Of a DNA stretch of 64,000 nt, positions 7,239 to 11,127 are shown in pieces. The stretch spans positions 1 through 64,000 of the forward strand of contig JAQBTQ010000006.1 of assembly GCA_027624855.1 (NCBI GenBank). Reading direction: 5' to 3'. A model generated the notes under the pieces. That model was not told the origin of the DNA, ran no database searches, and saw only the letters and a list, made by a program, of their open reading frames with translations. Within the stretch, counting starts at the first letter, position 1, and each line of letters begins with the position of its first letter. The position numbers and the translations under genes were made by a program. This DNA comes from Bacteroidota bacterium. Its GTDB lineage: Bacteria > Bacteroidota > Bacteroidia > Flavobacteriales_D > Sanyastnellaceae.

Positions 7239-7246
7239 TACTTTTG
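7239..7246 (+). promoter_or_regulatory. -7 box of the rpsA promoter
   Basis: TACTTTTG matches TAnnTTTG exactly. It lies 37 bases after the preceding stop codon. Transcription from here would give an rpsA leader of about 85-90 bases, which contains the two hairpins described separately. Confidence 0.65.
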
Positions 7247-7263: not shown

Positions 7264-7316
7264 CACCTGCGGGACCAGGTGAATCTTAACACTTCTGCTT
7301 TCGTCCCAAGGCAGAA
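7264..7316 (+). promoter_or_regulatory. rpsA leader: two hairpins with complementary hexaloops
   Basis: Hairpin 1 is CACCTG / CAGGTG (7264-7269 with 7276-7281) and closes the hexaloop CGGGAC. Hairpin 2 pairs 7293-7301 with 7308-7316 (nine pairs including one T-G) and closes the hexaloop CGTCCC. GGGAC of loop 1 (7271-7275) is the exact reverse complement of GTCCC of loop 2 (7303-7307), so a five-pair kissing interaction is possible. The element lies between the promoter box and the rpsA start codon. A role in feedback control of S1 synthesis is inferred; folding has not been computed. Confidence 0.6.
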
Positions 7317-7338
7317 TACAAAACCCACTGGGAAAGCC

Positions 7339-9573
7339 ATGAGCGAAGAAACCCAGAAATCCGAAGAGCAAGCTGAAAATCAAGCTGCTCCTACCGCAGA
7401 AAGCACGGATCAAGAAAACAATCAGGAACAAGAAGCTGCTCCAGCAGAAGAAGTGGTCAATGAAGACGCTCCTCAAGTTGAAGCTGCAGTTGCTGAAGAA
7501 TCTCCAGAATCCACCAAGGAACCCGTTCAAAAATTAGAAGAGCGACCTGCCCTTGCTGAACCAGGAGAATTTGATTGGGAAGCATACGAATCAGAATCTG
7601 ATGATTACGATTCAAAAGACCGAGCTGAGCTTGAGACGACTTATGAAAATTCTCTAAACCTCATTCAAGAAAAAGAGGTTGTGGACGGAACGGTTGTTTC
7701 AATCACTAAAAAAGAGGTGGTTGTCAACATTGGTTACAAGTCTGAAGGAATTGTGAACGCGAGCGAATTCCGTTACAATCCAGACTTGAAAGAAGGGGAC
7801 GTCGTTCCCATTTTCATTGAAAAGCAGGAAGACCAGAATGGTCAATTGATTGTATCGCATCGCACTGCCAGAATCTTCAGCGCTTGGGATAAAATCAACG
7901 AGGCCAATGAAAAAGGGCACATTATCCAAGGTGATGTCAAGTGTCGCACCAAAGGTGGTTTGATTGTTGATGTATTCGGAATTGAGGCATTCCTCCCCGG
8001 ATCACAAGTAGATGTAAAGCCCATCCGAGATTTCGATGTTTACGTCGGAAAGCAGATGGACTTCAAAGTGGTTAAAATCAACCAAGAATTCAAGAATGTC
8101 GTTGTTTCACACAAAGCTTTGATTGAAGCAGAATTGGAGGAACAAAAACGAGTCATCATTGGAGGCTTGGAAAAAGGCCAGGTATTGGAAGGCACCGTCA
8201 AAAACATCACTTCCTATGGAGTATTTGTGGATTTGGGCGGCATCGATGGTCTTGTTCACATCACAGACATGTCATGGGGACGAGTCAATCATCCAGAAGA
8301 GTTGGTCGAATTGGATCAACAACTCAACGTTGTAATCCTCGACTTTGATGACGACAAAAAGCGAATTGCTTTGGGCATGAAGCAATTGACGTCACACCCT
8401 TGGGATTCCATGACAGAGGACTTGGTTGAAGGTGGACGAATCAAAGGAAACGTTGTTGTGATCGCTGACTACGGTGCTTTCGTTGAAATTGCACCTGGAG
8501 TTGAAGGTCTTCTCCATGTTTCTGAAATGAGTTGGTCTCAACACTTACGCAGTGCGCAAGATTTCCTCAGTGTTGGTGATGATATCGAATGTGTCATTTT
8601 GAACATCGATAGGGAAGAGCGAAAAATGTCGCTAGGATTGAAGCAATTGAAGCAGGATCCTTGGGCAGAAATCGACCAGCGTTATCCAGTAAATTCAAAA
8701 CAGAAAGGGGTTGTTCGAAACTTCACGAACTTCGGATTATTTGTAGAGCTCGAAGAAGGAATCGATGGATTGGTGCACATTTCTGACTTGTCATGGTCTA
8801 AGAAAATCAAGCACCCATCGGAATTCTGCAGCATCGGAGATGAGATCGAAGTCGTTGTGCTCGAATTGGACAAAGAGAATCGTCGCATGAGTTTGGGACA
8901 CAAACAGATGGAGGAAAATCCATGGGAGGTGTTCGAAACAATTTTCGCAGTGGGATCAAACCATTCTGGAACGGTCGTAAAGATTGATGGTAACCAAGCA
9001 GTGATTGCCCTTCCTTATGGACTTGAAGGCTCATGTCATGTAAAGCATCTCAATAAAGAAGATGGTACAGCCATTGTTGCCGAAGAAACTGCTGATTTCG
9101 TAGTGCTTGAATTTAACCGTAACGCCAAGCGCATTACAGTAAGCCACACGCGCACGTTTGAGGAAGCTCCGCAGTCAGCAGCGCCAGCAAAAGAACGCAA
9201 ACAGCGTTCCGGCGGTGGAAGCAATCGCATGATGAACGAGGTAAATGCCAGCGTAGAGCGAAGCACATTTGGTGATTTGGATGTATTAAGTGCCTTGAAA
9301 GAGCAAATGGATGAAACTCCTGCTGAAACAAAAGAGTCAGAACCTGCGAAGCCTAAAAAAGCCACTAAAAAGAAAGCCGATGCCGTTGCAGATGAAGCAG
9401 CAACTCTAGAAACTTCCGCTGAAACGGAGGCTTCAGCTTCAGAGGAAGAAGGAGCAGAAAAGGAGGAGGCAAAGCCAAAAGCGAAGAAGGCACCAGCTAA
9501 GAAGGCTGCTACGAAGAAAACAACAGCAAAGAAATCTACATCCAAAACCAAAAAGGATGAAGACAAAAGCTAA
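7339..9573 (+). CDS. rpsA: 30S ribosomal protein S1
   Basis: S1 binds mRNA and helps it onto the 30S subunit. The 744-residue protein carries six S1 (OB-fold) repeats between about residues 111 and 605. The best preserved ones show the pattern GxVxxIxxYGxFVxL..GxxGLxHxSxMSW. Before them is an acidic, glutamate/alanine-rich stretch of about 100 residues. After them is a 140-residue tail that becomes lysine/alanine rich (KKAPAKKAATKK). Such extensions make it much longer than the enterobacterial protein of about 557 residues. I chose ATG 7339 because an upstream in-frame GTG (7279) sits inside a leader hairpin. The gene is monocistronic, with its own promoter and a terminator 27 bases after the stop. 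Confidence 0.95.
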   Translation: MSEETQKSEEQAENQAAPTAESTDQENNQEQEAAPAEEVVNEDAPQVEAAVAEESPESTKEPVQKLEERPALAEPGEFDWEAYESESDDYDSKDRAELETTYENSLNLIQEKEVVDGTVVSITKKEVVVNIGYKSEGIVNASEFRYNPDLKEGDVVPIFIEKQEDQNGQLIVSHRTARIFSAWDKINEANEKGHIIQGDVKCRTKGGLIVDVFGIEAFLPGSQVDVKPIRDFDVYVGKQMDFKVVKINQEFKNVVVSHKALIEAELEEQKRVIIGGLEKGQVLEGTVKNITSYGVFVDLGGIDGLVHITDMSWGRVNHPEELVELDQQLNVVILDFDDDKKRIALGMKQLTSHPWDSMTEDLVEGGRIKGNVVVIADYGAFVEIAPGVEGLLHVSEMSWSQHLRSAQDFLSVGDDIECVILNIDREERKMSLGLKQLKQDPWAEIDQRYPVNSKQKGVVRNFTNFGLFVELEEGIDGLVHISDLSWSKKIKHPSEFCSIGDEIEVVVLELDKENRRMSLGHKQMEENPWEVFETIFAVGSNHSGTVVKIDGNQAVIALPYGLEGSCHVKHLNKEDGTAIVAEETADFVVLEFNRNAKRITVSHTRTFEEAPQSAAPAKERKQRSGGGSNRMMNEVNASVERSTFGDLDVLSALKEQMDETPAETKESEPAKPKKATKKKADAVADEAATLETSAETEASASEEEGAEKEEAKPKAKKAPAKKAATKKTTAKKSTSKTKKDEDKS

Positions 9574-9600
9574 ACTTCACTTCGAAGAATAACCCATGAA

Positions 9601-9629
9601 AAAAGGGAAGTCATATGGCTTCCCTTTTT
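9601..9629 (+). terminator. Terminator of rpsA
   Basis: AAAAGGGAAG, loop of eight bases, CTTCCCTTTT: a perfect 10-bp stem ending in a T run, 27 bases after the rpsA stop codon. It shows that the ATG at 9596 is not the pyrR start. Confidence 0.9.
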
Positions 9630-9638
9630 CTTTGAATG

Positions 9639-9646
9639 TATCTTTG
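9639..9646 (+). promoter_or_regulatory. -7 box of the pyrR-pyrB promoter
   Basis: TATCTTTG matches TAnnTTTG. It ends only six bases before ATG 9653, so the transcript would have almost no leader. Confidence 0.6.
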
Positions 9647-9652
9647 TACCCG

Positions 9653-10198
9653 ATGGAATCACAGGTCCTAATGGATGAAGCTCTTTTTGAGCGTGTATTG
9701 GATAGGCTAACACATCAGTTGCTTGAACATCATGATTTCACCGAAACAGACCTTGTGGGCCTTCAACCTCGCGGTTTTTGGTTAGCGCAAATCTTCCAAG
9801 AAAGGATTCAAAAGTTACTTCCGAATGCCCAGATTAATTGTGGAGGATTGGATGTCACCTTTCACAGGGATGATTTTCGCAGAAGAGAAAAACCCATTTC
9901 ACCTGCGTCAACGCACATGCCATTCATTGTAGAGAAGAGGAATGTGATTCTAATCGATGATGTTCTTTTCACGGGAAGAACGATTCGAGCGGGTCTCGAT
10001 GCACTCTTGGCTCATGGAAGACCTGAATCAGTGCAGTTATTGGTTCTAGTTGATCGACGTTTCCAAAGAGAATTGCCCATTGAGCCACAATACATAGGTA
10101 AATCAGTCGACAGCATCGATTATCAGTATGTGCAAGTACTGAAGAATGAGGACAGCAGACGTTGTCAAGTCATGTTATTCAACAAGAAGCCGGAATGA
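9653..10198 (+). CDS. pyrR: PyrR: pyr operon regulator / uracil phosphoribosyltransferase
   Basis: PyrR-family proteins bind uridine nucleotides and PRPP. In Bacillus they control pyr mRNA by attenuation and also make UMP from uracil. The 181-residue protein has the PRPP-binding loop VILIDDVLFTGRT at residues 98-110 and the family segment around LQPRGFWLA. The ATG at 9653 is preferred over 9596 (inside the rpsA terminator); 9671 is a second possibility. The stop overlaps the pyrB start as ATGA, so the two genes are translationally coupled. I see no obvious PyrR-type attenuator in the very short leader, so control here may be by enzyme activity only or act elsewhere. Confidence 0.9.
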   Translation: MESQVLMDEALFERVLDRLTHQLLEHHDFTETDLVGLQPRGFWLAQIFQERIQKLLPNAQINCGGLDVTFHRDDFRRREKPISPASTHMPFIVEKRNVILIDDVLFTGRTIRAGLDALLAHGRPESVQLLVLVDRRFQRELPIEPQYIGKSVDSIDYQYVQVLKNEDSRRCQVMLFNKKPE

Positions 10199-11127
10199 AT
10201 CAACTATCTGTTCGTCATTTAACCGGTATTAGGGGACTCACGGAAAATGATGTCCAATTGATTTTCCAGGCGGCGAAGGAATTTAAAGAGGTCATCAATC
10301 GCCCTATCAAAAAAGTACCTTCGCTTCGAGATCTGACAATTGCCAACCTTTTTTTTGAAAATTCAACGCGTACGAGGCTTTCATTCGAACTTGCAGAGAA
10401 GCGTCTCAGCGCGGATGTCGTGAATTTTTCAGCCGGAAGCAGCTCGGTTTCAAAAGGAGAAACCTTAGTGGATACCGTCAATAACATTTTGGCTATGAAG
10501 GTGGACTTGGTGGTAATGAGGCACCCCCATCCTGGAGCATCGCAATTTTTAGCCAATAAGGTTGATACGATCGTGGTCAATGCTGGCGATGGCACCCATG
10601 AACATCCGACACAAGCACTCCTTGACGCCTTTAGTTTGCAAGAAAAACTTGGTGACCTTTCGAATAAGAATGTAGCAATTGTTGGAGACATTCGTCATTC
10701 TCGGGTGGCATTAAGCAACATCCTTTGTCTAAAGCTACTTGGCGCAAATGTTAGGGTATGTGGTCCCAAGACTTTGATACCGAAGGGAATCAATTCAATG
10801 GGAGTTGATGTAAGCCATAATTTACAAGAAACCCTCGAGTGGTGTGACGTAGCGAACATGTTAAGAATTCAGCTGGAGCGCCAAGAAAAGGGAACCGTAC
10901 CGTACTTTCCTTCATTGCGAGAATATGCAATGACCTTTGGATTGAATAAGGATAGGCTGGACAAACTTGACCATGAAATCACCATTTTACATCCTGGACC
11001 AATCAATCGAGGGGTAGAAATCACGAGTGATGTAGCCGATGGAAACCACTCGATCATTTTGAATCAAGTAGAGAACGGAGTGGCCATTCGAATGGCTGTT
11101 TTGTATTTGCTGGCTTCGAAGACCTAA
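10195..11127 (+). CDS. pyrB: Aspartate carbamoyltransferase, catalytic chain
   Basis: PyrB joins carbamoyl phosphate to aspartate, the first committed step of pyrimidine synthesis in the cytoplasm. The 310-residue length is normal. Key motifs are present: the carbamoyl phosphate loop FFENSTRTRLSFE at about residues 53-65, HPTQALLDAF near 136, and LHPGPINRGVE near 265 that contacts the substrates. The start at 10195 overlaps the pyrR stop by four bases. No pyrI regulatory chain follows, which fits the PyrR-associated type that lacks the regulatory subunit. Confidence 0.96.
   Translation: MNQLSVRHLTGIRGLTENDVQLIFQAAKEFKEVINRPIKKVPSLRDLTIANLFFENSTRTRLSFELAEKRLSADVVNFSAGSSSVSKGETLVDTVNNILAMKVDLVVMRHPHPGASQFLANKVDTIVVNAGDGTHEHPTQALLDAFSLQEKLGDLSNKNVAIVGDIRHSRVALSNILCLKLLGANVRVCGPKTLIPKGINSMGVDVSHNLQETLEWCDVANMLRIQLERQEKGTVPYFPSLREYAMTFGLNKDRLDKLDHEITILHPGPINRGVEITSDVADGNHSIILNQVENGVAIRMAVLYLLASKT

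Follow-up and report, generated by a model that had tools for sequence, protein, structure and literature searches.

A candidate kissing-loop leader RNA upstream of rpsA in Bacteroidota and its possible role in autoregulation by ribosomal protein S1

The 5' leader of rpsA, the gene for ribosomal protein S1, carries two adjacent hairpins whose loops are complementary to each other. It was found in a member of Bacteroidota, in a stretch of DNA of 64,000 nucleotides (hereafter the window) from a draft genome of 40 contigs and 2.29 Mb. As far as the leaders compared can be read, the same arrangement is present before rpsA through the order of the window and in further families of the class. On sequence grounds, this structure is very likely a real cis-acting control element of the rpsA messenger. 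S1 probably represses its own translation through the kissing-loop leader, where we infer both S1 as the ligand and the sign of the regulation. More tentative, and somewhat short of probable, is the full proposal that the leaders form an undescribed S1 autoregulatory RNA family, order-wide and in further class families, in which the intramolecular kissing complex is the S1 receptor.

All features of the leader are on the plus strand of the window. A TAnnTTTG -7 promoter box (TACTTTTG), read in the sequence at 7239-7246, is presumably the Bacteroidota promoter element, and a TAnnTT[TC]G box also stands before the leader in relatives. The leader RNA is predicted to start at about 7253, a few bases 3' of this box. 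Hairpin 1 (7264-7281) is formed by six base pairs, CACCTG with CAGGTG, around the loop CGGGAC (7270-7275). A single-stranded linker of 11 nt (7282-7292) leads to hairpin 2 (7293-7316), in which nine pairs, including one G-U, are formed by TTCTGCTTT and AAGGCAGAA around the loop CGTCCC (7302-7307). Both hairpins are contained in the minimum free energy structure given by RNAfold. Five bases of the first loop (GGGAC, G7271-C7275) are exactly complementary to five of the second (GTCCC, G7303-C7307), and these two kissing strands were the subject of the loop-swap tests described below. Hairpin 2 is directly followed by a single-stranded UACAA (7317-7321), which is conserved in relatives. The ATG of rpsA is at 7339, 22 nt from the end of hairpin 2. 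The putative controlled gene (7339-9573) encodes 744 amino acids, and its product matches NF004953, 30S ribosomal protein S1, with 886 bits (cut-off 720). The first-pass annotation had reported hairpins of 6 and 9 pairs, hexaloops CGGGAC and CGTCCC with five complementary bases, and a location between the TAnnTTTG box and the S1 start; this reading was exact and its coordinates agree with ours.

The folding energy of the 111-nt stretch was ordinary (z-score of -0.68; 46 of 200 shuffled sequences were equally stable), so that thermodynamics by itself is not evidence for the element. Under a strict rule, which demands two adjacent hairpins of at least six pairs each with a GC-rich 5-base loop-loop match, the rpsA leader was the one place found on the plus strand of the window, the minus strand gave none, and 20 Markov-1 random sequences of 64 kb gave one place in total. 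A looser rule, requiring a hairpin before TACAA and an upstream hairpin with a matching loop, was not unique: three chance places on the minus strand scored 20.5 to 22.0, and the rpsA leader itself scored 22.0. It was unspecific elsewhere too, since two Bacteroidales-type loci (L264 and L265) scored 22.5 and 19.2 and had no match in the relaxed kissing-hairpin search described below. We consider the decisive evidence for the element to be comparative.

The loop sequences are wholly different between families, with their complementarity kept. In addition to GGGAC/GTCCC in the window, the loop pairs found within single leaders include TGATGGC/GCCATCA, TTACAGC/GCTGTAA, CCCTGAA/TTCAGGG, ATTCGACA/TGTCGAAT, ACCAATA/TATTGGT, CTAAGGC/GCCTTAG, and CAAGAAAC/GTTTCTTG. 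In the swap tests, the interior of hairpin 2 of each leader was compared with its own upstream segment and with the segments of other families. At the family level (30 families with one genome each, false detections kept, the set chosen without using the loop partner), the best helix scored on average 14.6 with own and 11.7 with exchanged segments, and none of 20,000 permutations reached the observed mean. When the partner was confined to the loop of the upstream hairpin, the corresponding scores were 18.9 and 13.35, with 0 of 5,000 permutations reaching the former in each of 20 random draws of representatives. Under this hairpin-1-loop rule, a score of at least 18 was obtained for 73 of 95 leaders, including 45 of the 47 order leaders, versus 1,525 of 7,998 cross-family exchanges (19%). 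The 22 leaders below 18 comprise four without a result under the rule (L033, L068, L091, and L106) and 18 others; L033 gave no result because its hairpin 2 was misplaced, which was corrected in the relaxed search. Some kissing pairs are only 4-5 bp long.

A held-out set of 21 genomes, whose leaders were found by the covariance model R3 and had been unused in earlier steps (G010 was left out, as was G295, whose contig has the same length as that of training locus L190), gave a similar picture. The mean score was 20.5 for own versus 14.8 for exchanged partners (0 of 20,000 permutations reached the own mean), and 19 of the 21 genomes scored at least 18 versus 28.9% of 308 cross-family exchanges, values to be read with the caveat that the R3 loop positions carry some sequence preference and several genomes come from genera already sampled. 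The exceptions were L290, for which the rule gave no kissing pair, and L309, with a score of 17.8. These comparisons indicate that the two loops are mutually complementary and that this is maintained by compensatory change. That the hairpin-2 loop pairs instead with GGGA close to the start codon was considered and rejected: the downstream TGGGAAAGCC is mostly constant while the loop varies in the genus, which gives no covariation support.

Taking 6 Å per nucleotide and 2.8 Å per base pair, the linker is long enough to reach across the coaxial stack in 77 of the 80 leaders measured. The kissing helix could thus form within one strand. Linker length and stack length showed no correlation (Spearman 0.03).

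Both stems also covary. Covariance models, which did not include the kissing helix, were built from leaders of the genus and then widened. In 19 sequences, aligned by a fit to the structure that leans towards it, 98.7% of 238 cells were standard pairs, and 65 cells were changed on both sides versus 19.7 in shuffles. In 30 sequences, fitted in the same way and carrying the flaws of alignment A10 and model R3 (one false row, L049 673-738, and some wrongly aligned arms of hairpin 1), 95.3% of 359 cells were paired, and 139 were changed on both sides versus 43.9 in shuffles. Two-sided changes were seen in all six pairs of hairpin 1 and in six of the seven modelled pairs of hairpin 2 (12 of 13 in total) in both alignments. 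For the 30 sequences, this count of pairs was not above the shuffles (12 versus 11.0; 150 of 500 reached it); the cells paired, the cells changed on both sides, and the covariation score were above all 500 shuffles. Shifting the pairing partners by 1-3 columns resulted in pairing of 36-55%. It should be mentioned that the loop-swap tests are independent of these two alignments. MAFFT alignments of distant leaders (A3 and A4), in which the hairpins were not aligned, were unused for the counts; alignment A5, in which two loop registers were mixed, was set aside, and A6 seeded the models.

Model R2 matched 24 of 40 relatives, at one place each, and 22 of these places were rpsA leaders already located. 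The remaining two were on a contig of G010 and in G043 (E value of 0.463), the latter elsewhere and chance-like. The G010 place (C39:4675-4747; L312) is a leader with a kissing pair near the contig end; no S1 was seen in the approximately 200 nt that follow, and protein search gave no full S1 gene in this genome. In three genomes of the same genus without an R2 match (G005, G012, and G017), the protein search likewise gave no full S1 match. Model R3 matched 46 of 120 order genomes, again at one place each, and 44 of these places were directly before rpsA: 22 coincided with leaders located through the gene, and 22 of the 24 others had S1 downstream on the same strand by tblastn. The two matches off rpsA (L303 and L311; E values of 0.031 and 0.093) had no adjacent S1 gene and seem to be chance-like. 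False places were returned by the first model (E up to 5) and by R2 (E up to 2), for example L025 1827-1897 and L111 462-550, both on the minus strand. The models are insensitive: 74 of the 120 order genomes had no R3 match, R2 (E up to 2) recovered 29 of 56 chosen carriers, and known leaders were missed in G023, G024, G025, G028, G029, G030, G032, and G034. Therefore, genomes without a model match need not lack the element.

The leaders were also surveyed through the gene. By protein search, rpsA was located in 60 relatives, 119 class genomes, and 118 phylum genomes, and the upstream DNA was compared in 184 genomes (50 of the 60 relatives, all matching class genomes but two, and 11 of 89 outside the class). 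The leader detector required a TAnnTT[TC]G box plus a hairpin with UACAA immediately 3' of it, and ignored the loop partner. It was positive in 95 of the 184 genomes, including 47 of 50 order loci, some of them probably false (e.g., L085 and L146); because UACAA and the promoter-like box are demanded by the detector, their frequency is not derivable from these counts. L019 and L020 are without UACAA yet have two hairpins with matching loops (GGGCA/TGCCC and ACAGGG/CCCTGT), and L036, missed by the detector, has a matching loop pair visible by eye. In the relaxed kissing-hairpin search the UACAA requirement was dropped. Positives were 42 of the 50 order loci, 63 of the 95 detector leaders, and 33 of 135 class and phylum loci (122 with a searchable region; L055 duplicates an order genome, and L156, L170, and L175 are chance-like), against a background of 19 in 475 Markov random controls. 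L036, L187, and L197 were missed by this search though their pairs are visible by eye.

Over the 80 leaders, the linker has a median length of 13 nt; it is A/T-rich and ends approximately in AA[AC]NNC, according to base counts from 30 families. UACAA tracks hairpin 2, and its distance to the start codon varies. Hairpin 2 lies 15-23 nt from the first ATG, taken without verification of the start codon, in 67 of the 80 leaders. This spacing puts the end of hairpin 2 at the upstream edge of a 30S subunit during initiation.

Among 80 named records, the relaxed detector was positive in 22 of 28 with flavobacterial titles (three without a searchable region) versus 4 of 52 others. Of the four, L189, L215, and L242 have flavobacterial-type leaders and may be misnamed or misbinned; together with L195, they have titles other than Flavobacteriales and were grouped with flavobacterial loci by leader. 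Named carriers include Brumimicrobium salinarum, B. mesophilum, B. glaciale, and Fluviicola chungangensis. The 48 other-type loci, mostly Bacteroidales, of which 39 were searchable, gave one relaxed match (L219). In many families of the class, and at nearly all Bacteroidales-type loci, the element was not detected, which means that S1 control does not require it. Outside the order, kissing hairpins were observed in part of the class families, and UACAA was different or absent in f28, f47, f40, f19, and f41; single cases here are tentative, given the background in the random controls. Kissing pairs without the UACAA flank, which point to a loop-loop core that predates this motif, were seen in L126 and L133 (f47), L157, L158, and L161 (f28), L123 (f40), L052 and L065 (f41), and L110 (f19).

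A different conserved rpsA leader, approximately ATAATGTCTAACTTATTAA and 30-50 nt before the start, is shared by many Bacteroidales-type loci. It was observed in L200, L213, L226, L228, L230, L244, L252-L254, L258, and L259, with variants in L227, L234, L237, L243, L247, and L257. This leader may contain a short upstream ORF; in L200, inspected by eye, the ORF would overlap the S1 start codon.

That the element might overlap a described leader family had been considered from the outset. No family of Rfam 15 matched the leader at its gathering score, in the window or at 40 related loci; MIR2086, PtaRNA1, and DUF805b scored far below their gathering scores in the window and were taken as chance. 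Absence from Rfam might be caused by the inability of standard covariance models to hold pseudoknots, by which the tertiary contact is missed. Like the leader, Flavo-1 RNA (RF01705), filed as an sRNA, is a flavobacterial RNA near rpsA, in three f63 genomes (L091 1167-1252 and L094 1177-1252 on the plus strand, and L089 3482-3577 on the minus strand). It differs in its position, about 85-100 nt 5' of the leader with its promoter box and without overlap, and was not found in the window. Such an element was likewise not found in the open PubMed Central literature, supplements aside, in the portions consulted (including PMC7247131, PMC10931766, PMC11109978, PMC8632094, PMC7708055, and PMC9976891). 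A count of 30 ribosomal leader candidates, one of them described in the text consulted, is given in PMC11109978, and the rpsA leader may be among the others. The element thus appears to be a ribosomal protein leader with an unusual kissing-loop architecture that is neither in Rfam 15 nor in the literature searched, and a prior description is possible.

Among the closest known systems is the rpsA leader of E. coli and other gamma-proteobacteria, which concerns the same gene and has a conserved fold directly upstream, a proposed competition between free S1 and the 30S subunit, and no canonical Shine-Dalgarno (SD) sequence (PMC10931766). Its specific fold has AU-rich single strands, and the description consulted mentions no kissing helix (PMC10931766), whereas the Bacteroidota leader consists of two hairpins, a covarying loop-loop helix, and UACAA; the two folds are set apart by description only. 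The gamma-proteobacterial leader gave no Rfam match in the window, and the E. coli leader is perhaps absent from Rfam. A survey of 20 motifs in ribosomal protein leaders (S4, L13, S15, and S16; PMC7247131) described structured 5' leaders in the same phylum; S1 is not among the ligands in its summary table, and its main text uses neither "kissing" nor "pseudoknot". The S1-binding pseudoknots (the SELEX ligand, the tisB standby site, rpsO, and tmRNA; PMC7708055) resemble the element, in the reading proposed here, in using tertiary loop pairing as an S1 receptor. They are pseudoknots in other RNAs, whereas here two hairpins would meet loop to loop in the messenger of S1 itself, with S1 binding putative. 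Autoregulation of bS21 (rpsU) in Flavobacteriales is also feedback by a ribosomal protein on translation initiation, but it depends on an extended Shine-Dalgarno sequence and ribosomes lacking bS21, with no leader RNA structure in the account consulted (PMC9976891).

Two features by which autogenous leaders of ribosomal proteins are recognized were found here, namely a consistent place in the 5' leader of a ribosomal protein gene and a covarying, conserved RNA structure. The near-exclusive association with rpsA and the published work on S1 and pseudoknots seem to favor an S1-responsive switch. In E. coli, S1 specifically represses its own messenger, competing with the 30S subunit for the initiation region of rpsA (PMC10931766); pseudoknots are among the RNAs bound by S1, one SELEX pseudoknot with nanomolar affinity (PMC7708055); and in F. 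johnsoniae, bS1 promoted initiation on one mRNA lacking an SD sequence (PMC9976891). From these three observations together, negative feedback by S1 is favored. In the model we propose, two hairpins separated by a short A/T-rich linker are joined through a kissing helix of usually 5-8 pairs, with UACAA on the 3' side of hairpin 2, a structure that the sequence comparison supports, and this complex lies at the upstream edge of the position that a 30S subunit would take on the mRNA. The folded kissing complex and its single-stranded flanks might constitute a high-affinity S1 site. Free S1, in excess of ribosome uptake, would bind the leader and hold the complex in its folded form. The leader-bound S1 would then bar loading of the 30S subunit, whose own S1 brings it to the start codon, leading to self-repression. 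Because hairpin 2 has no terminator-like U-run behind it in the window sequence, transcription attenuation was rejected, and control at translation initiation is the likelier level.

The main rival, which we regard as rather unlikely, is that the kissing complex is a docking or standby enhancer that recruits S1 bound to the 30S subunit and raises rpsA translation in ribosomes that work without SD pairing, with no feedback by free S1. The spacing of 15-23 nt before the first ATG fits this explanation, and so does the activity of F. johnsoniae bS1 mentioned above; furthermore, S1 anchors the 30S subunit on the pseudoknot of E. coli tisB mRNA, where compensatory mutations restore activity (PMC7708055). 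A device for general use would, however, be expected on other highly expressed genes, and the model matches are confined to rpsA save weak ones. Less probable still is that the leader answers a signal other than S1 (another ribosomal protein, an sRNA, an RNase, temperature, or a small molecule) or mainly shields the 5' end of the mRNA. The hairpin pair does start near the predicted RNA start, and the choice of S1 as ligand is ours; on the other side, near-exclusive association with rpsA is the usual sign of an autogenous ribosomal protein leader, and a mere shield would seem to need no covarying loop-loop helix. Any complementary loop pair could pair in trans, but dimerization of two mRNA molecules through these loops is very improbable, given linkers long enough for pairing in cis in nearly all leaders and the expectation that cis pairing of nearby loops is favored at cellular mRNA levels. 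A chance coincidence of two hairpins, to which the unremarkable folding energy and the three similar-scoring looser-rule places on the other strand might point, has a negligible probability and is refuted, as far as sequence can do so, by the loop-swap tests, the stem covariation, and the rarity under the strict rule. The first-pass annotation had held the coincidence hard to explain by chance, and its kissing-loop reading, for which covariation was looked for in related genomes and was present in the loops and both stems, is strongly supported.

In the small subunit, S1 is a major protein for mRNA binding. Translation in Bacteroidia starts without Shine-Dalgarno pairing (PMC9976891), and S1 autoregulation has been described for gamma-proteobacteria (PMC10931766); in the literature consulted, the S1 balance in other phyla is apparently little described. 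The compact 53-nt leader with its covarying, order-wide kissing helix is a concrete RNA candidate for such control. If repression by S1 through this leader is correct, the leader would represent an unusual architecture among ribosomal protein leaders, and a dedicated tertiary fold of RNA would mediate S1 feedback in bacteria whose ribosomes do without SD pairing. S1 would then sense S1 through the same contacts as are used in mRNA docking.

Two observations concern the surroundings of rpsA. In the window (9573-11127), a pyrR-like gene (NF003549) begins 22 nt 3' of rpsA, and the following ORF is one that we take to resemble aspartate carbamoyltransferase; the S1 leader might affect these downstream pyrimidine genes too. 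In addition, strong SD-like sequences (GGAGG or AAAGGAG) were seen just before rpsA in the class genomes L101, L104, L143, L149, L151, L153, L155, and L162. Such sites are unusual for bacteria that initiate without SD pairing and may be compared with the site of rpsU (PMC9976891).
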